This document shows positions 19,187 through 34,970 of a DNA stretch of 40,510 bases, in pieces. Under the pieces are notes generated by a model that made no database searches, had not been told where the DNA came from, and saw only the letters and a program-made list of their open reading frames with translations. Position 1 is the stretch's first letter. Every line of letters begins with the position of its first letter. The position numbers and the translations under genes were made by a program. This DNA comes from Bacillota bacterium (GTDB lineage Bacteria; Bacillota_I; Bacilli_A; Erysipelotrichales; Coprobacillaceae), in the NCBI GenBank assembly GCA_030540195.1, contig JAUNWT010000013.1, positions 1-40,510 on the forward strand, written 5' to 3'.

Positions 19187-19209
19187 AATGACCTCCATTG
19201 GAGGTCATT
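19187..19209. terminator. Bidirectional terminator
   Basis: Perfect stem AATGACCTCC / GGAGGTCATT (19187-19196, 19200-19209) with a 3-base loop. An A-run on the left serves as the T-tract for asd on the minus strand. Confidence 0.85.
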
Positions 19210-19214
19210 ACCTT

Positions 19215-20252
19215 TTATTTTAATAAACCTAATTCGATCATTTTTAATCCGATGTCTACAGAGTTATAAGCAGCACCTTTCATTAATTGGTCACCTGTAA
19301 TCCATAAACTTAAAGCATTATCTTTATATAAATCTTTTCTTACACGTCCAACGTGAGTTAATTCATCACCAATAAAGCTTGTTGGCATTGGATAAACTTG
19401 ATTTGCTAAATCATCGCATAAATCAATACCTGTACTATTTCCTAATAATTCAAAGACTTTATCCATAACGATTGGTTTTTTAGTTTCAATATAGATTGAT
19501 TCACTATGTCCACGTAAAACAGGAACACGAACACAAGTTGCATTGACTTCAATATCTTTATTGAAGATTTTTTTAGTTTCATTAACCATTTTCATTTCTT
19601 CTTTACTATATCCATTTGATAAATCAAATTTATCAACTTGAGGAATACAGTTGAAAGCAATTGGGAAATGTTTTTTATCCCCAGCACAAGGTAATGTTTT
19701 AGCAACAGGTTCTTTACCATCTAAAACTTCTTGACTTTGACGATAAAGTTCTTCCATACCAGCAACACCAGCACCAGATACAGCTTGATAAGTAGAAACA
19801 ACGATTCTTTCAATATCAAATTCATCATTTAATCTTGTAAGAGCACTACACATCATAATTGTTGTACAGTTTGGACAAGAAATAATTCCATGATGATTTT
19901 TTAAGGCTTCACCATTTACTTCAGGAACAACTAAAGGAACATTAGGATCCATTCTAAAATGTGAAGTATTATCAATGTTGACACATCCAGCTTCTACGGC
20001 ATATTTCATATATTTTTCTGAAATACTTCCACCAGCAGACCAGAAAGCAACTTCAACACCTTCAAAACTATTTTCAGTTAATTCTTCAACAACAAATTTA
20101 TGTCCTTCAAATTCGATCTCTTTTCCAGCACTTCTTGCAGAAGCTAATAATTTAATACTTTCAAAAGGAAAGTTAAATTGGAAAACACATCTTAACATTT
20201 CACGACCAACGGCACCAGTAGCACCTACAATAGCAATTTTAAATTTTTTCAT
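19215..20252 (-). CDS. asd: Aspartate-semialdehyde dehydrogenase
   Basis: 345 residues, full length. The NADP-binding loop is GATGAVGREM (10-19), the catalytic Cys129 is in SCPNCTTIMM, the active-site region has GAGVAGMEEL, and a C-terminal RGHSESIYIETKK carries the substrate-binding Arg and His. It reduces aspartyl phosphate to aspartate semialdehyde, the branch point for lysine, threonine and methionine. It is 13 bases downstream of hom and shares its attenuated transcript. An aspartokinase gene is not in the window. Confidence 0.95.
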   Translation of the reverse strand: MKKFKIAIVGATGAVGREMLRCVFQFNFPFESIKLLASARSAGKEIEFEGHKFVVEELTENSFEGVEVAFWSAGGSISEKYMKYAVEAGCVNIDNTSHFRMDPNVPLVVPEVNGEALKNHHGIISCPNCTTIMMCSALTRLNDEFDIERIVVSTYQAVSGAGVAGMEELYRQSQEVLDGKEPVAKTLPCAGDKKHFPIAFNCIPQVDKFDLSNGYSKEEMKMVNETKKIFNKDIEVNATCVRVPVLRGHSESIYIETKKPIVMDKVFELLGNSTGIDLCDDLANQVYPMPTSFIGDELTHVGRVRKDLYKDNALSLWITGDQLMKGAAYNSVDIGLKMIELGLLK

Positions 20253-20265
20253 TTCTATAATCTCC

Positions 20266-21420
20266 TTATCCTCTTACTTTAAAAATAACAGCATTTTCAT
20301 CATTTAATTTATTTTTTAAATCAGCTAATTCTATTTCTTCTGTTATATAAATATGATCATCTTTTTCGCTATAGTATGTTTCATAAGGAATATCAACAGG
20401 TTTAGATGCTCTTACATAATAACGTGAAGAAGAAATAGGGTAAACATGTTTACAATCTTCATAATCATGTGACCATCTTTCAACTTGGTGTGTTTTCATA
20501 ATATCACTGACAACTGCAGAAGCAGTAACATAACGACCAGCACCACGACCATAATAGATGATGTTATTTACATAATCGTTGTCGATTTCTACAACGTTAT
20601 AAGAATCCATGACATTTGCGACAAGTTCATTTAAATTAACAAGTGTTGCAGAAACATCAATTCCTAAACCATCTTTTACTGGTTTTGCTTGAGCAATCAT
20701 TTTAAAACGATAACCTAACTTTTTAGCGTAATCCATATCTAATTTAGTGACATTACGAATACCACTTGCTTGAATTTGATCAAAGTCTACAAATTTTTGA
20801 TAACCATTTTGTGCTAAGATACAAATCTTATGAGCTGCATCAATTCCATCTAAATCTAAAGCAGGATTGGCTTCAACGTATCCTAACCCATCTGCAATTG
20901 ATAAGGCTTCATCAAAATCAAGATTTTCATTTTCCATTAAAGTTAAAATAAAGTTTGTTGTTCCGTTTAAAATACCAACAATTTCTTTTGTGTTGTTTGC
21001 AATCAAACTTTCTTTTTGACTTGCTAAAACAGGAATACCTCCCCCTACAGAAGCTTCATAGAAAATATGTACATCATTTGCTTTAGCAGTTTGGAAAATT
21101 TCTTTACCATAATGAGCTAATAAAGCTTTATTAGCTGTAACAACGTGTTTTTTGTTATTTAAGGCTTCTAAAATAATATTTTTTGCAATTGTTGTTCCCC
21201 CAATAAGTTCAACAACAACATCAATTTCTTCATCATTAATTACATCGTGATAATCTTTTGTATAAATAATTCCCTCAGGTAAGTCTACTTCTTCAAGACC
21301 ACACCCATATTTAACAACGATTTCTTGTTTCATTTCTTTTTCTAAACGTGTTTTTTCATTTGTAAGAATTTCAACAACTCCATATCCTACAGTACCAAGT
21401 CCAATAACACCGATTTTCAT
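20266..21420 (-). CDS. hom: Homoserine dehydrogenase
   Basis: 384 residues. The NAD(P)-binding motif is GVIGLGTVGYGVVEIL (4-19), with VTANKALLAHYG, the substrate-binding GGGIPVLASQKESL and the catalytic block GTTNFILTLMENENLDFDEAL. It reduces aspartate semialdehyde to homoserine. After about residue 320 only a short region, YYVRASKPVDIPYETYY to the end, remains, where most Firmicutes enzymes have a full ACT domain of about 75 residues for threonine feedback. The frame opens at 21450, but AAGGGGG lies before the ATG at 21420. It leads the hom-asd operon downstream of a leader-peptide attenuator. Confidence 0.95.
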   Translation of the reverse strand: MKIGVIGLGTVGYGVVEILTNEKTRLEKEMKQEIVVKYGCGLEEVDLPEGIIYTKDYHDVINDEEIDVVVELIGGTTIAKNIILEALNNKKHVVTANKALLAHYGKEIFQTAKANDVHIFYEASVGGGIPVLASQKESLIANNTKEIVGILNGTTNFILTLMENENLDFDEALSIADGLGYVEANPALDLDGIDAAHKICILAQNGYQKFVDFDQIQASGIRNVTKLDMDYAKKLGYRFKMIAQAKPVKDGLGIDVSATLVNLNELVANVMDSYNVVEIDNDYVNNIIYYGRGAGRYVTASAVVSDIMKTHQVERWSHDYEDCKHVYPISSSRYYVRASKPVDIPYETYYSEKDDHIYITEEIELADLKNKLNDENAVIFKVRG

Positions 21421-21433
21421 GATATTCCCCCTT

Positions 21434-21460
21434 AATAAAAAATAGACCAAATGGTCTATA
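21434..21460 (-). terminator. Attenuator terminator in the hom-asd leader
   Basis: On the minus strand: ATAGACCA-TT-TGGTCTAT followed by TTTTTT, directly before the hom ribosome binding site. Its 5' arm can instead pair with an upstream leader segment (see 21480-21532), so termination would be conditional. Confidence 0.85.
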
Positions 21461-21479
21461 AAGATTTTAACATTATGAA

Positions 21480-21532
21480 ACCATTATTTTTATGCTTTAT
21501 TTGTTAAATGCATCAATAATAGTAATAATGGT
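21480..21532 (-). promoter_or_regulatory. Alternative pairing segments of the hom-asd attenuator
   Basis: Segment 1 is ACCATTATT inside the leader peptide codons (21532-21524). Segment 2 is AATAATGGT (21488-21480), a perfect 9-bp complement. Segment 2 continues as AATGGTTT and can pair with AGACCATT, the 5' arm of the terminator, giving an antiterminator of 8 bp with one G-U. This is the classic 1:2 / 2:3 / 3:4 attenuator layout. Confidence 0.8.
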
Positions 21533-21538
21533 CATCAT
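21497..21538 (-). CDS. Threonine/isoleucine leader peptide
   Basis: Thirteen residues, MMTIITIIDAFNK, with two Thr and four Ile codons in a row (residues 3-8). A GTGAGGT ribosome binding site precedes it on the minus strand. It lies between the hom promoter and the attenuator hairpin, so ribosome stalling at the Thr/Ile codons when charged tRNA is scarce would free segment 2 to form the antiterminator. It is analogous to the E. coli thr operon leader but unrelated in sequence apart from the codon bias. Confidence 0.82.
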   Translation of the reverse strand: MMTIITIIDAFNK

Positions 21539-21567
21539 GTTAAACCTCACTTTCTTTATTTTTTGAT

Positions 21568-21596
21568 ATAATAGCATGATTGTATACACGAGTCAA
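21568..21596 (-). promoter_or_regulatory. Promoter of the hom-asd leader transcript
   Basis: Minus strand: TTGACT (21596-21591), 17-bp spacer, TGC-TATTAT extended -10 (box 21573-21568). The spacer carries GTATACAAT, also present in the thrC promoter. Confidence 0.75.
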
Positions 21597-21651
21597 TTTT
21601 TTCTCATGAATTTCTTTCCTTATATTATATTAATAATAAAATCTTGTATTG

Positions 21652-21680
21652 TTGACTTTGTATACAATATTCAATATAAT
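21652..21680 (+). promoter_or_regulatory. Promoter of thrC-thrB
   Basis: TTGACT (21652-21657), 17-bp spacer, TATAAT (21675-21680), 26 bases before the thrC start. The spacer contains GTATACAAT (21660-21668). No attenuator is seen on this side. Confidence 0.8.
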
Positions 21681-29995: not shown

Positions 29996-31093
29996 TTATT
30001 TATTTTTTATGCTTTCCGGATAGTAAATACTGTTTACAGCATCGATTAATAATTTAATATCGATATGTGTATAAACCTTTTCGGTCAAGCTCATTGCTCC
30101 TTTATGTCCAACAATCATTTTTTGATATGTAGGAGATACTTCAGCTTCAGCTAATAATGAAATACATGTATGTCTACAACAATGAGGTGTTTGATCAAAT
30201 CCAAGTTGTACCATTAATGGTAGAAAATAACTATCATAATAATTTCTATATTTAAATCTTTTATCTTCTTCGGTGTGTAATAGATATTCACATTTTGAGG
30301 AATGATACCAGTTTTCAACAAGGGGATAGATATAATCACTGATAGGAACTTTACGTATACCGTTTTCTGTTTTTGATTTAATTACATTAAAATAATGTTC
30401 TTCCAAATGAATATTTTCTTTTTTTAGTGATAATAGCTCATCAATTCTAACACCAGTGTAAATCATTATAAGAATGATTTGGTAATACTTATCATCTTTT
30501 AAAGACCATAATATATCAATTTGTTTTTTGGTAAATGCTTTTCTATCGTACTTATTTGGGTTTTTATCACTATATTTACTGATATTCACATATTTTGAAT
30601 AATCTTTTCCACAAATATCTAATTTCATTGCATAAGAATATAATTGGTTAAATAATATCTTTATTTTTCTTAAAGTTGGATAATTTTTATCACAATTATC
30701 AATTACATTCTGTAAATCTTTTGTTTTTAAATCTCTAAATTTGTGTTCAAATAAAACAGAACATGCATTATATGCTGCACGATAACCGTTGATTGTCGAT
30801 TTAGTAGCATCAGCGTATTTTTCTACCGACCAATTATCATAGACTTCTCTAAATGTCATACTTCCATTTTCTAAATCAAAAGGACGTTCATGATATTTAG
30901 CTAACATTTGCATACCTTCTTGTCTTGTTTTTGCGTATCCAATAATTGCATATTTTTGAATACTTTTACCTTTGGCTTCATCTAAAGCATAACCTGTGGT
31001 AATACGCACCATATAAGGTTTTCTTCTACGAGAAGCGTTACTCATTTTTGTAACACTTCCATAACTATTTGGTAATTTTAAATTTTTTGCCAT
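29996..31093 (-). CDS. Tyrosine recombinase / integrase
   Basis: 365 residues. An N-terminal AP2-like arm-binding region (PNSYGSVTKMSNASRRRKPYMVRI), a SAM-like core-binding domain (about 75-165), and the catalytic domain with Arg216 (YTGVRIDELL), Lys241 (SKTENGIRKVP), His304 and Arg307 (HCCRHTCISLL), His330 (IVGHKGA) and the nucleophile Tyr341 (KVYTH). It is of the Tn916/ICE Int type. It catalyses integration and excision, here probably at the rpsI 3' end. The longer frame to 31123 lacks a site; AGGAGG fits the ATG at 31093. It overlaps the tnpV gene by 29 bases. Confidence 0.95.
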   Translation of the reverse strand: MAKNLKLPNSYGSVTKMSNASRRRKPYMVRITTGYALDEAKGKSIQKYAIIGYAKTRQEGMQMLAKYHERPFDLENGSMTFREVYDNWSVEKYADATKSTINGYRAAYNACSVLFEHKFRDLKTKDLQNVIDNCDKNYPTLRKIKILFNQLYSYAMKLDICGKDYSKYVNISKYSDKNPNKYDRKAFTKKQIDILWSLKDDKYYQIILIMIYTGVRIDELLSLKKENIHLEEHYFNVIKSKTENGIRKVPISDYIYPLVENWYHSSKCEYLLHTEEDKRFKYRNYYDSYFLPLMVQLGFDQTPHCCRHTCISLLAEAEVSPTYQKMIVGHKGAMSLTEKVYTHIDIKLLIDAVNSIYYPESIKNK

Positions 31094-31445
31094 CAAAGAC
31101 AACCTCCTTATTTTGATATACATATGCTTTTAGAATTTCTTTTCTTATATTGGATAGTAATTTTTCTCGTTCAATTTTTGAAACAAATTTATTGTTTTCA
31201 AATAGTACTTTTGTTCTGCTTTGAAAAAGTTGTTCACAAAAGCAATTAAGAACAAATAGCTTATGTTTATATTTATGACTATATTTGGATAGAAGATATT
31301 TGGATGGATGCTGTTCTTTTAAATAGTTAAGTTTTTCAGTAGCATAGTAACCTAATGCAGGTTCAGCATCATCAAATATAGGATAATAAATATCTCCTAT
31401 TTTCTTGTATTTAATTTTGTGTTTTATATTATCTTTCTCGATCAT
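31065..31445 (-). CDS. TnpV-like transposon-encoded protein
   Basis: 127 residues. The block YYPIFDDAEPALGYYATEKL with NYLKEQHPSKYLLSKYSHKY fits the TnpV pattern, where an IGRYGxLRxxYLKEHRPxxY block precedes a helical region. TnpV proteins are found in clostridial mobile elements and have no proven role; they are thought to assist excision or mobilisation. The gene overlaps the relaxase upstream by 17 bases and the integrase downstream by 29, so all three share one transcript. A TTG start at 31475 is possible but has no ribosome binding site. Confidence 0.65.
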   Translation of the reverse strand: MIEKDNIKHKIKYKKIGDIYYPIFDDAEPALGYYATEKLNYLKEQHPSKYLLSKYSHKYKHKLFVLNCFCEQLFQSRTKVLFENNKFVSKIEREKLLSNIRKEILKAYVYQNKEVVFDGKKFKITK

Positions 31446-32628
31446 GTGTTTTCTTCTTTCTAATAGGTTCTTCAAGTATGCGCTCTACTTCTTTTCTTCC
31501 TATTACTTTTTTTAGTTTGTTTAATTGATTTTGTAATTTCATATTTTCATGAGTAAGAAACCCATTTTCTCTTTGTAAATAGTTAATGGTACCTCTTAAG
31601 GGACCTATTTCTTCATTCAATTGTTTTACTTCACGATAAAGACGATTGTATTTGGTTATAACAACATCAATAATTTTTCTGAGTTTATTGATATAAGGTT
31701 CGATTATTTTATTTAAATAAGTTTTTGCGCTCATAAGTTTAGTTGGTTGGGGTATTTCCCATAGTTCTTCTTTGTTGATTTCGTTTGTCATTCTATAAAG
31801 TTCTTGTTCATTATCTTTGATTTCATATAATTTTGATTCAATTTCAGCATATTGTTTTTCAGAGGATTTGATACAAGAATCTAAATGATCTTTTTGTAAG
31901 CTTAAATAAGATATAGAATCTGTGAGTGATTCAACTTCCTCTTCACGTTTTTTCTTTTCGTAATTTAGAACACTTAAATGTTTTTCATGTGTGCCAAGTT
32001 GTAACCAATGAACATTGTATTTTTCCATTACTTTTGATAATTCTTGTTTTTCGGATGCAATCCATTGATTCCATTCAGTGTTACCACGACTACCACCCTT
32101 AAAACCTAATTGAGCAAGTGCTTGTTTAAGAGAAACACGTGTATCTAAACCACGCTTACTATTGGTGATAAAAGGTATGAAATCAATATGAAGATGCGGA
32201 GTTTCTTCGTCCATGTGCAAATGTGCTGAAAAGACAAATAGTGATGGATTTCTTTTTTGAAAGTTCTTCATGTATTCATCAAGTATTATTTTGGCAAGTT
32301 CTCCTTCAGGAGATCTAGCGTTTGTATCTTTACAATTCCCAATTTGAATAATGACTTCATGAAATGTTTTTTCTTGTTTACTTGTTCTTATCTTATTGTA
32401 GTAATCTTTAATAACACGATCTTTTCTCTTTTGTTTAGCGTTGTATCTTTGTAAAGCTTCATCAAATAATTGATAATAGGCTGTATGAATATTCATATTT
32501 ATATATTCAATATTTTGGCTGGTGCGCGATGGATCAACGTTGTTTGCAATGAATTTTCTACTATTATGATTTTGATTTCCTTTACCAAGCATTGCACTGA
32601 TTGTTCGAGATAAATGATATTCATTCAT
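31429..32628 (-). CDS. MobV-family relaxase (Pre/Mob)
   Basis: 399 residues. N-terminal motif HNSR (21-24) and the metal-binding three-His motif HMDEETPHLH (138-147), the hallmark of MobV relaxases, followed by GGSRGNTEWNQWIA. Residues about 220-385 are coiled coil (KKKREEEVESLTDSISYLSL and LQRENGFLTHENMKLQNQLN), as usual in this family. It nicks oriT and pilots the strand during mobilisation by a helper conjugation system. The candidate oriT is immediately upstream. A GAGG site lies before the ATG. Confidence 0.92.
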   Translation of the reverse strand: MNEYHLSRTISAMLGKGNQNHNSRKFIANNVDPSRTSQNIEYINMNIHTAYYQLFDEALQRYNAKQKRKDRVIKDYYNKIRTSKQEKTFHEVIIQIGNCKDTNARSPEGELAKIILDEYMKNFQKRNPSLFVFSAHLHMDEETPHLHIDFIPFITNSKRGLDTRVSLKQALAQLGFKGGSRGNTEWNQWIASEKQELSKVMEKYNVHWLQLGTHEKHLSVLNYEKKKREEEVESLTDSISYLSLQKDHLDSCIKSSEKQYAEIESKLYEIKDNEQELYRMTNEINKEELWEIPQPTKLMSAKTYLNKIIEPYINKLRKIIDVVITKYNRLYREVKQLNEEIGPLRGTINYLQRENGFLTHENMKLQNQLNKLKKVIGRKEVERILEEPIRKKKTHDRER

Positions 32629-32650
32629 TAAATAAGCCTCGCAGAGCGCA

Positions 32651-32704
32651 AAGCATCTTTTGTTTTTGACAAAAGTGCTTTTGCGTTACTTTCGCAAAAG
32701 TAAC
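32651..32704. other. Candidate oriT
   Basis: Just upstream of the relaxase gene. Two inverted repeats stand side by side: AAGCATCTTTTG / CAAAAGTGCTT (32651-32662, 32670-32680, one bulged base) and the perfect GTTACTTT-CGCA-AAAGTAAC (32685-32704). MobV oriTs usually lie here and contain such paired repeats. The nick site cannot be placed. A run of eight T follows at 32711, so the second hairpin could also act as a terminator on the plus strand. Confidence 0.5.
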
Positions 32705-32770
32705 AAAGGCTTTTTTTTAAAAGAAGATTGCAACATTGCAAGTATCTAAGGAGTCTACAACCTTGCAATG

Positions 32771-33727
32771 TTAATTTAATTTCCAATACCATGATTTACC
32801 TTCTTTGAATGATTGAATTTTTAGTTCAGCCTTTGCTTGATCGAGTGTTCTTTTTGAAAAATTCAAGTTCTTCCCTTTTTCGTACATTTCACTTGCTTTG
32901 ACAGGAGAGTTTGCTAATGTTTCTTGAAGAAATTCTTTTGCTCTATCTTTATCCGTTAATTTTTTAAATCCATCGAGTAATTCATCAACATCAATTTCAT
33001 ATTCACCAATCCATTTAAAACCTTCATCATCAAATTTAAATGCAAATGGTTTGCCTCTTTGAGCAAGACTTGATTTATCCTGAACAACAGCTCTTATACC
33101 ATTTTCATTTTTTAATTCACCACAAATAAGAACACTACGAGCAGCTGCAGGAATATCAATACTTCCTAAATTACGATAAGAAGATTTACTTCCTTTACCT
33201 TTATTCATATGTCCTACTAAAACAATAGCAACTTGATGTTTTTGAGCAATTGTCATTAGATTCTTCAATAATGGTCGCATTTCATTGGCTCTATTCATAT
33301 CAACTGTTTGCCCAATATATGCTTGTATTGGATCAAGAACTAACAACTTTGCGTTTTCTTGAATAATTGCTTGTTCAATTCTTTCATCTAACATGGTAAG
33401 TGAACAATGGTCTTCTTTGATAAAAACGATATTATTAAAATCAACATTTTCAAATTTTTCTAGACGAGGTTTAATTGTATCTTCATAGCCATCTTCAGAT
33501 GTTTGATAAATGACAGTCATTGGTTCGTGTTTAATATTTTCTTCTTCGGTAGGTAAGGGAGAACCAGTAGATAGCAAACCAGCAAGATAAAGTACAAGCA
33601 TTGTTTTTCCACTTCCTGGATTTCCTTGAATTATTGTTAATTTACCGAAGGGGATATAGGGATACCATAACCACTCAACATCAGTACTTTGTACCTCAGA
33701 TAAGCGCGTTATTTCTAATTCAACCAT
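32771..33727 (-). CDS. RepA/AAA_25-type RecA-like ATPase
   Basis: 318 residues. Walker A is QGNPGSGKT (34-42) and Walker B is LLVLDPIQAY with Asp131, followed by a sensor block AIVLVGHMNKGKGSKSSYRN and DIPAAARSVLICGE. This is the RepA-like hexameric helicase / AAA_25 fold found in plasmids, phages and mobilizable elements. The C-terminal 75 residues form a small winged-helix-like domain. It probably unwinds DNA when the excised element replicates or transfers. Its ATG directly follows the stop codon of the 33728 gene, so the two are coupled. Confidence 0.85.
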   Translation of the reverse strand: MVELEITRLSEVQSTDVEWLWYPYIPFGKLTIIQGNPGSGKTMLVLYLAGLLSTGSPLPTEEENIKHEPMTVIYQTSEDGYEDTIKPRLEKFENVDFNNIVFIKEDHCSLTMLDERIEQAIIQENAKLLVLDPIQAYIGQTVDMNRANEMRPLLKNLMTIAQKHQVAIVLVGHMNKGKGSKSSYRNLGSIDIPAAARSVLICGELKNENGIRAVVQDKSSLAQRGKPFAFKFDDEGFKWIGEYEIDVDELLDGFKKLTDKDRAKEFLQETLANSPVKASEMYEKGKNLNFSKRTLDQAKAELKIQSFKEGKSWYWKLN

Positions 33728-33964
33728 CTAAATATTTCCTTTAAAATAACCAGTTTCTTCCCATACTTTTTTATCGGGACAGTAGTAATTGAATTCTGAT
33801 GAATTATCTCTTTTCATTGCATAACCAAATTTCAAAATACCTTTTTGTAAGCCGATACGGATAAATTGTGCATCCTTTCCAATGGCTTTTGAGAGTTCCA
33901 TAATAGGAACATTTCTACCAGTAAATTCTGGTAATTCAATAAATACTCTATTTTCTTCTTTCAT
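33728..33964 (-). CDS. Small excisionase-like / helix-turn-helix protein
   Basis: 78 residues. The central segment VPIMELSKAIGKDAQFIRIGLQKGILKFG, read in two parts (VPIMELSKAIGKDAQFIRI and GLQKGILKFG), looks like a MerR/Xis-type winged helix that reads DNA, and a Tyr/Trp-rich tail follows. It may be the recombination directionality factor or an initiator accessory protein; the sequence alone does not decide. The ORF opens with GTG at 33970, but AAAGGAGG fits the ATG at 33964. It is the first gene of the minus-strand operon of the element. Confidence 0.6.
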   Translation of the reverse strand: MKEENRVFIELPEFTGRNVPIMELSKAIGKDAQFIRIGLQKGILKFGYAMKRDNSSEFNYYCPDKKVWEETGYFKGNI

Positions 33965-34011
33965 GTTCACATTCCTCCTTTAAAAAGAGTATTAAATTGT
34001 GAAAGAAAGTT

Positions 34012-34020
34012 TGCTATAAT
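34012..34020 (+). promoter_or_regulatory. Extended -10 promoter of a short RNA
   Basis: TGC-TATAAT ending at 34020. The -35 is poor. It points away from the minus-strand rep operon and is followed 90 bases later by a strong terminator. Confidence 0.55.
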
Positions 34021-34026
34021 GTACAA

Positions 34027-34109
34027 GAAAGGACATTATAAAAACAGTTCTTTCGCGTTACATAGAGTTCATTAGATGTGTCGCCAAACGTTATCTAATG
34101 AACTTTTTT
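34027..34109 (+). ncRNA. Candidate small RNA upstream of the rep operon
   Basis: About 83 bases between the extended -10 box and a perfect 12-bp terminator, with no reading frame. It is antisense to the leader of the 33728-32771 transcript if that transcript starts near 34150-34200. That is the layout of a counter-transcribed RNA controlling replication genes. A 12-codon frame on the opposite strand (34091-34129) ends inside the same hairpin, but its start is only 2 bases from its GGAG. The rest of the 33965-34313 gap is AT-rich with the operator noted at 34175. Confidence 0.45.
34066..34109 (+). terminator. Terminator of the candidate small RNA
   Basis: Perfect stem AGTTCATTAGAT / ATCTAATGAACT (34066-34077, 34093-34104), 15-base loop, T-run to 34109. 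Confidence 0.85.
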
Positions 34110-34174
34110 ATTTTCTGTTTTATATTCATCACTCCTTTCGTATGGATAACTTTATGCAAAATATAAATAGCATT

Positions 34175-34188
34175 TAGTTATCTAACTA
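34175..34188. promoter_or_regulatory. Operator-like palindrome in the divergent region
   Basis: TAGTTA-TC-TAACTA, between the rep operon and the XRE gene. A pair of CAACACAAT direct repeats follows at 34216 and 34226, 10 bases apart. Either could be the binding site of the XRE protein. Confidence 0.4.
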
Positions 34189-34313
34189 CACTATACTATC
34201 AAAAGAAACTAATTGCAACACAATACAACACAATTAATTTACTTTTGGTGTTTAATTCATATTTAAAATACTTTATAATAGAAATGAATATATAAAAAAT
34301 GAGGAGTGATATG

Positions 34314-34970
34314 ATGTATTTTGCGCAATTTATGAAAGATTTACGTCAAGAAAAATCATTAACACAAACTGAAATAGCTGAAATATTAGGGGTTAGTGTT
34401 CAATCTATAAAAAAAATAGAGAATGGAACAACTAACTTTCCCAGTAAGATATTGTTAAACAAATTAGCTGATTATTTAGATCAATTTCCTATAGCAATTG
34501 CATCAAAAATAATTTTTGGTGATGAAGATTGTGATAGAGATGAAGTAGGGTATTTATCTGCACGCTATTTAGCATATAAATACATAAATGGCTGGAATTT
34601 AGATGAAGTACCTATTTGGCTTGAAGATAAAACACAATCAATATGTTTCGCTGGAAAAATATCTAAAAGAAGAGAACCAAAAAACACATCAATTGTTATA
34701 GAATTTAGTGAATTTATTTTAAATGATTCAGAGAAAATAACACTTGATGATGCTTATAGTATTTTAAGTACAATTATGATGATTGTTTCACAAAATGAAG
34801 AATCTTTTAGAAGGGTAGAAGTATTATTTGATCTTCATAACCATTATGAAAGTGAAGCATTTCAACTTCTTGAAAGTGTAACTTTATATCGTGTTCCAAC
34901 CGATTTGATTTTAGTTGAGTTTGAACCAGATACAGGAGCAATAAGTCGAGAGATTAGTGTGAAAAAATAG
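34314..34970 (+). CDS. XRE-family regulator with a C-terminal beta-rich domain
   Basis: 218 residues. The N-terminal helix-turn-helix (about 1-60) has MKDLRQEKSLTQTEIAEILG and VSVQSIKKIENGTTNFPS. Residues about 75-218 form a second domain of unknown family, with strands and helices (for example SIVIEFSEFILND and FRRVEVLFDLHNHYESEAFQ). A regulator of the element, an antitoxin, or part of a defence pair with the DUF2971 protein downstream are all possible. GAGGAG at 34301 fits the ATG at 34314 best; 34311 is an alternative. A TATAAT box is at 34274-34279. Confidence 0.75.
   Translation: MYFAQFMKDLRQEKSLTQTEIAEILGVSVQSIKKIENGTTNFPSKILLNKLADYLDQFPIAIASKIIFGDEDCDRDEVGYLSARYLAYKYINGWNLDEVPIWLEDKTQSICFAGKISKRREPKNTSIVIEFSEFILNDSEKITLDDAYSILSTIMMIVSQNEESFRRVEVLFDLHNHYESEAFQLLESVTLYRVPTDLILVEFEPDTGAISREISVKK

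Follow-up and report, generated by a model that had tools for sequence, protein, structure and literature searches.

The hom-asd operon and its promoter

The window, i.e., the whole stretch of 40,510 nucleotides analysed here, comes from a gut bacterium and belongs to Faecalibacillus, a genus of the Coprobacillaceae within the Erysipelotrichales. On its minus strand it carries hom (20269–21420), the presumably regulated gene, coding for a homoserine dehydrogenase (NF004976, 377 bits for a cut-off of 205) that is 99% identical to those of Faecalibacillus intestinalis and F. faecis. The next gene, asd (19215–20252, minus strand), starts 16 nt after hom and codes for an aspartate-semialdehyde dehydrogenase (NF011456 and TIGR01296), and a terminator detected at 19209–19187 by a scan of the window closes the hom-asd operon. 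The thrC and thrB genes lie on the plus strand, divergently from hom-asd. The end products of homoserine are threonine, isoleucine (via threonine), and methionine. IlvC was present in 15 of the 15 genomes tested and a homoserine acyltransferase of the MetA family in 14 of them, including the closest relatives of the window's genome; the window's own draft assembly is the one in which the acyltransferase was not found. A search of a plasmid collection returned no near match. Elsewhere in the window, directly beyond rplM-rpsI, the region 29996–34970 contains genes for an integrase, a mobilisation-like protein, a RepA-like ATPase, and an HTH regulator, and by its ORF sequences looks like an integrated mobilisable element.

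The elements of the putative attenuator extend from 21596 to 21420 on the minus strand, ahead of hom-asd. They begin with a sigma-70-type promoter (21568–21596, 10/12 match), composed, as the first-pass annotation had read it, of TTGACT (21596–21591), a 17-nt spacer, and TATTAT (21573–21568). This promoter is not significant alone, as a scan of the leader region returned fewer promoter-like sites than in shuffled sequences. A GTATAC motif lies between its two hexamers, and a TTGAC...GTATACAA...TATTAT-like layout precedes hom in most members of the family. This recurrence of GTATACAA suggests a shared repressor site that would act besides attenuation. A 10-nt palindrome-like motif (TTGTATACAA/TGTATACAAT) is found at 21579–21588 on the minus strand and at 21658–21668 on the plus strand, i.e., between the −35 and −10 hexamers of both divergent promoters, those of hom and thrC. 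As the operator of a specific regulon, the GTATAC motif was rejected: the genome has 16 copies of exact TTGTATACAA and 14 of its reversed control, hence no genome-wide enrichment.

Leader peptide, segments, and terminator

Downstream of the promoter, a GAGG Shine-Dalgarno (SD) sequence (21545–21548, minus strand) precedes a short ORF, MMTIITIIDAFNK (21497–21538, minus strand), coding for the leader peptide M(M)TIITIIDAFNK of 12–13 residues. Its control codons are Thr3, Ile4, Ile5, Thr6, Ile7, and Ile8. If translation started at the second ATG, which the F. faecis relative G003 has as its sole remaining leader start, the peptide would be MTIITIIDAFNK. Inside the Thr-Ile-Ile codons lies segment 1, ACCATTATT (21524–21532, minus strand), to which segment 2, AATAATGGT (21480–21488, minus strand), is perfectly complementary. 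The leader, its SD, and this complementarity had all been named in the first-pass annotation, and every one of these elements was found. The same annotation had proposed that segment 2 can pair instead with the 5′ arm of the terminator, and this is borne out: AATGGTTT (21485–21478) can pair with AGACCATT, i.e., segment 3 (21450–21457, minus strand), over 8 positions, one G-U among them.

Between the leader and hom, the first structural gene, stands an intrinsic terminator, ATAGACC-ATTT-GGTCTAT followed by a T run (21436–21459, minus strand), with its hairpin ATAGACCATTTGGTCTAT at 21459–21442. It had been described earlier with a 2-nt loop; the terminator and its T run are present, but an 8-bp stem closed by a 2-nt loop is impossible, and the hairpin that can form has 7 bp and a 4-nt loop. 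At −7.8 kcal/mol, it is not strong. A further helix was absent from the earlier description. The SD/start region of the leader, GAGGTTTAACAT, of which the GAGG is part as a piece of the 5′ arm, pairs with ATGTTAAAATCTT (3′ arm, 21461–21477, minus strand; 92% over 13 nt), directly upstream of the terminator. As a whole, the 128-nt leader RNA is more stable than 200 out of 200 dinucleotide shuffles (z −4.0).

A predicted switch that depends on the position of the ribosome

We folded the transcript up to the terminator loop while blocking a ribosome footprint at each codon in turn. The footprint, of assumed size, extended from 17 nt upstream of the first base of the A-site codon to 12 nt downstream of it, and equilibrium folding was used in place of co-transcriptional folding. 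In this model, the terminator 5′ arm of the window is captured by upstream RNA with a probability of 0.97, 0.97, and 0.95 when the ribosome stands at Thr3, Ile4, and Ile5, of 0.51–0.70 at codons 6–8 (Thr6 to Ile8), and of 0.21–0.22 from Asp9 to the stop codon (0.25 when no ribosome is placed), so that the predicted drop coincides with the end of the Thr/Ile run. The switch predicted for F. intestinalis G004 is sharper (0.85–0.97 at codons 2–9, then 0.02–0.03), and that of the close relative G005 is weak (0.46 falling to 0.14). As a control, only the spacer between the leader and the terminator was shuffled, 150 times. The difference between starved and completed states is 0.59 in the window (G000) versus −0.03 ± 0.17 in the shuffled spacers, none of which reached a value as large; the difference of 0.93 in G004 was equalled by 0 of 150 shuffles, and that of 0.33 in the diverged G002 by 4 of 150. 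Folding in both states, the check that the first-pass annotation had put forward, reveals in the window a codon-dependent switch that the 150 spacer shuffles did not reproduce. In the computed folds of the window and its genus, the antiterminator and the terminator are mutually exclusive, and the position of the ribosome at the control codons sets which of them forms.

Leaders of the relatives and their codon content

We examined the regions upstream of hom in 40 genomes of the family. The leaders differ in sequence and share the same plan. Those found in Faecalibacillus include MITIKTIIDAFKK and MIIHMTIFK; those of Thomasclavelia and its genus are MLSMGISLTITITSNSIITPIK, MLLMGMNSMMIIITSLIMPMNK, and others; and further members of the family have MKLMIMTS, MMITINISKTIMCFLNC, MITTTMTRIQ..., and MYKMMTMCISN. 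The conservation that the earlier reading had called for holds in part: Faecalibacillus and Thomasclavelia retain the plan, whereas the leader ORF is gone from several more distant members. In L042 and in G062 (L055), the leader ORF, of the Thomasclavelia type, is without its usual stop and continues through the terminator (MLLIGKNSTIMAIISSIIAPIIKIMVLL...); the hom match of G062 contains 12 internal stop codons.

Over 12 leaders, Met occurs 15 times versus 4.3 expected (ambiguous double starts being taken out of this count), Ile 36 versus 19, and Thr 17 versus 7, and no other residue is enriched. In seven well-separated leaders, Thr, Ile, and Met together number about 40 versus 15 expected, with p values of about 5e-9 to 4e-11 in ten out of ten choices of representative, and Met by itself gives 3e-4 to 1e-8 over ten such choices; these values assume independent leaders, which they are only approximately. 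For the leader of the window alone, the enrichment in Thr, Ile, and Met is modest (p 0.009). By their codon content, the leaders of the relatives probably also monitor methionine.

Two geometries and a helix with the Shine-Dalgarno region

In the geometry of Faecalibacillus, segment 2 has its partner in the RNA of the control codons. The leader of Thomasclavelia has its stop codon 2–6 nt before the 5′ arm of the antiterminator (inside or beyond it in G031), and a ribosome placed at the stop codon brings the antiterminator down to 0.00–0.15 in 7 of the 7 genomes modelled. Stalls at the first codons are predicted to leave it near 1 in 5 of these 7. For some mid-leader stalls, and for many of them in G031, G064, and G061, the model predicts no antiterminator; it is therefore incomplete there.

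The pairing of the leader SD region with the segment that immediately precedes the terminator is found in most genomes, and when the genomes are taken one by one, about half give energies with p ≤ 0.05 relative to shuffled partners. Within Faecalibacillus, where the MAFFT alignment of six leaders had too many gaps for pairs to be counted, compensatory changes are visible by eye (TTTAAC/GTTAAA in the window, CTTAAC/GTTAAG in G004, and TTTGAC/GTCAAA in G005). In the other two clades, the aligned pairs hold in 86–95% of cells versus 7–69% in slid controls. Formal covariation within clades is weak, with few double changes and pairs kept mostly via G-U changes, and only the in-leader hairpin of Thomasclavelia exceeded the shuffle control (18/500). 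Because of this weakness, we base the claim of conservation on energies, pairing percentages, and codon content.

Seven genomes, from three genera, have no convincing leader ORF, which is degenerate or absent: G018 (locus L057), G027 (L018), G029 (L048), G032 (L060), G035 (L016), G036 (L025), and G060 (L056). In all seven, the SD-region helix or a remnant of it persists together with the terminator, while G009 has neither the leader ORF nor the helix. From these sequences, we read the loss of the ORF with the helix kept as leader decay, another role of the helix being conceivable.

Proposed mechanism and alternative explanations

The element that precedes hom-asd in the window is very probably a ribosome-mediated transcription attenuator, a reading drawn from its sequence and from folding models. 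The parts and their mutually exclusive pairings are there, their outcome depends on the codon in the model, and the plan is conserved. We infer from this that, in vivo, the terminator ends transcription, the leader is translated, and the operon responds to threonine and isoleucine. RNA polymerase would start at about 21561 and a ribosome would load on the leader. With charged tRNA-Thr or tRNA-Ile in short supply, the ribosome would stall on codons 3–8 and cover ACCATTATT; segment 2, thus freed, would pair with the terminator 5′ arm, and transcription would enter hom-asd. If both tRNAs were plentiful, the ribosome would reach the stop codon and leave segment 1 exposed; segments 1 and 2 would pair, the SD/start region would do so with its downstream partner, and formation of the terminator would end transcription. 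The terminating fold would also hide the leader SD, and therefore an untranslated transcript should terminate too. The logic of the E. coli thr operon, which the first-pass annotation had proposed here, finds support in the folds modelled for the window and in a plan that is conserved among relatives.

A non-translated RNA switch, in which the SD helix and the terminator would respond to the binding of a metabolite or a protein and the leader ORF would be incidental, is improbable. It would fit the persistence of the helix that joins the SD region to the pre-terminator segment where the ORF is lost or degenerate, but among all codons only those for Thr, Ile, and Met are enriched in the leaders, the ORF is kept in frame across Thomasclavelia, including in G065, which carries an in-frame 3-nt deletion, and the predicted switch point falls on the control codons or on the stop codon. 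Besides, neither a conserved loop nor an aptamer-like core is seen in these leaders, and they match no Rfam family. We consider slightly less probable still a constitutive partial terminator accompanied by a chance ORF, which would damp hom-asd and sense no amino acid. Codon enrichment across unrelated leaders, and the codon-dependent switch that appeared in none of the 150 spacer shuffles, argue against it; the weakness of the terminator and the AT-rich genome, in which chance Ile codons are common (about 2 out of 12 expected), are in its favour. A T-box, i.e., the direct sensing of tRNA that is the usual Firmicute solution and is widely used in this genome (21 matches), is by far the least credible, and the sequence refutes it except in some highly reduced form: the 219-position model (RF00230) is longer than the leader RNA can accommodate, this RNA shows no tRNA-binding core, and no T-box was found in the window at the gathering score, near the leader at E values up to 5, or, using the covariance model, at the loci of 14 relatives.

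At the scale of the family, we propose tentatively, with a little less than even confidence, that the hom leader is a combined Thr/Ile/Met sensor which includes its own SD in the switch and exists in two geometries in sister genera. If this is true, a finished round of translation would both end transcription and block re-initiation, and sister genera would obtain the same logic in two ways, through pairing of the codon region in Faecalibacillus and through occlusion at the stop codon in Thomasclavelia.

Relation to known attenuators

The ribosome-mediated attenuator proposed here resembles the E. coli thrL/thrABC system (RF00506) in its short Thr/Ile-rich leader, in its segments 1–4 with mutually exclusive pairings, and in the terminator placed ahead of homoserine pathway genes. 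The E. coli leader has 21 residues. That of the window, with its 12–13 residues, is far shorter, its SD joins the terminating fold, and its relatives add Met codons; moreover, the operon is hom-asd, with thrC-thrB divergent, instead of thrABC. No sequence or covariance match to thrL was detected, and the enterobacterial Thr_leader family of Rfam (RF00506) has no match in the window even at E values up to 5. The window's probable attenuator resembles the control of the E. coli threonine operon but appears to be independently built.

The first-pass annotation had also considered ribosome-stalling attenuation as rare in Firmicutes, which more often use T-boxes. T-boxes are indeed widely used here, but such attenuation is not especially exotic. 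Leader attenuators of his operons have been predicted in Erysipelotrichales, including Coprobacillus and Erysipelatoclostridium (PMC9413887), i.e., in the same order, in related genera, and from the same type of comparative evidence, with His codons and a his operon in place of Thr/Ile(/Met) codons and hom-asd. The ilv leader-peptide attenuators of Listeria (Rli60, PMC5864092) and Staphylococcus aureus (PMC5794164) have experimental support, and in Rli60 mutants of the start codon and of the SD lower downstream transcription (superattenuation, PMC5864092). Both are Firmicute cases of leader-peptide control of amino-acid operons, as in the window, but they concern branched-chain operons and codons and their sequences are unrelated. 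Others have been predicted for hisZ and hisS* in bacilli (PMC2965389). Because of the published Erysipelotrichales his and Listeria and Staphylococcus ilv cases, this kind of attenuator is already known. In the open-access literature, which our search covered and which leaves subscription papers aside, we found no report of a Thr/Ile/Met leader of hom in Firmicutes, and the less expected features are the enrichment in Met, with the sensing that it would imply, and the involvement of the SD.

Extensive use of T-boxes (21 in this genome) need not keep an organism from controlling the homoserine branch point by a leader-peptide attenuator. Such a peptide can average several tRNAs and a T-box reads one, which may explain this choice where three products branch off. 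The leaders that are kept, rebuilt, or lost in neighbouring genera would offer a natural series for the origin and the decay of an attenuator.
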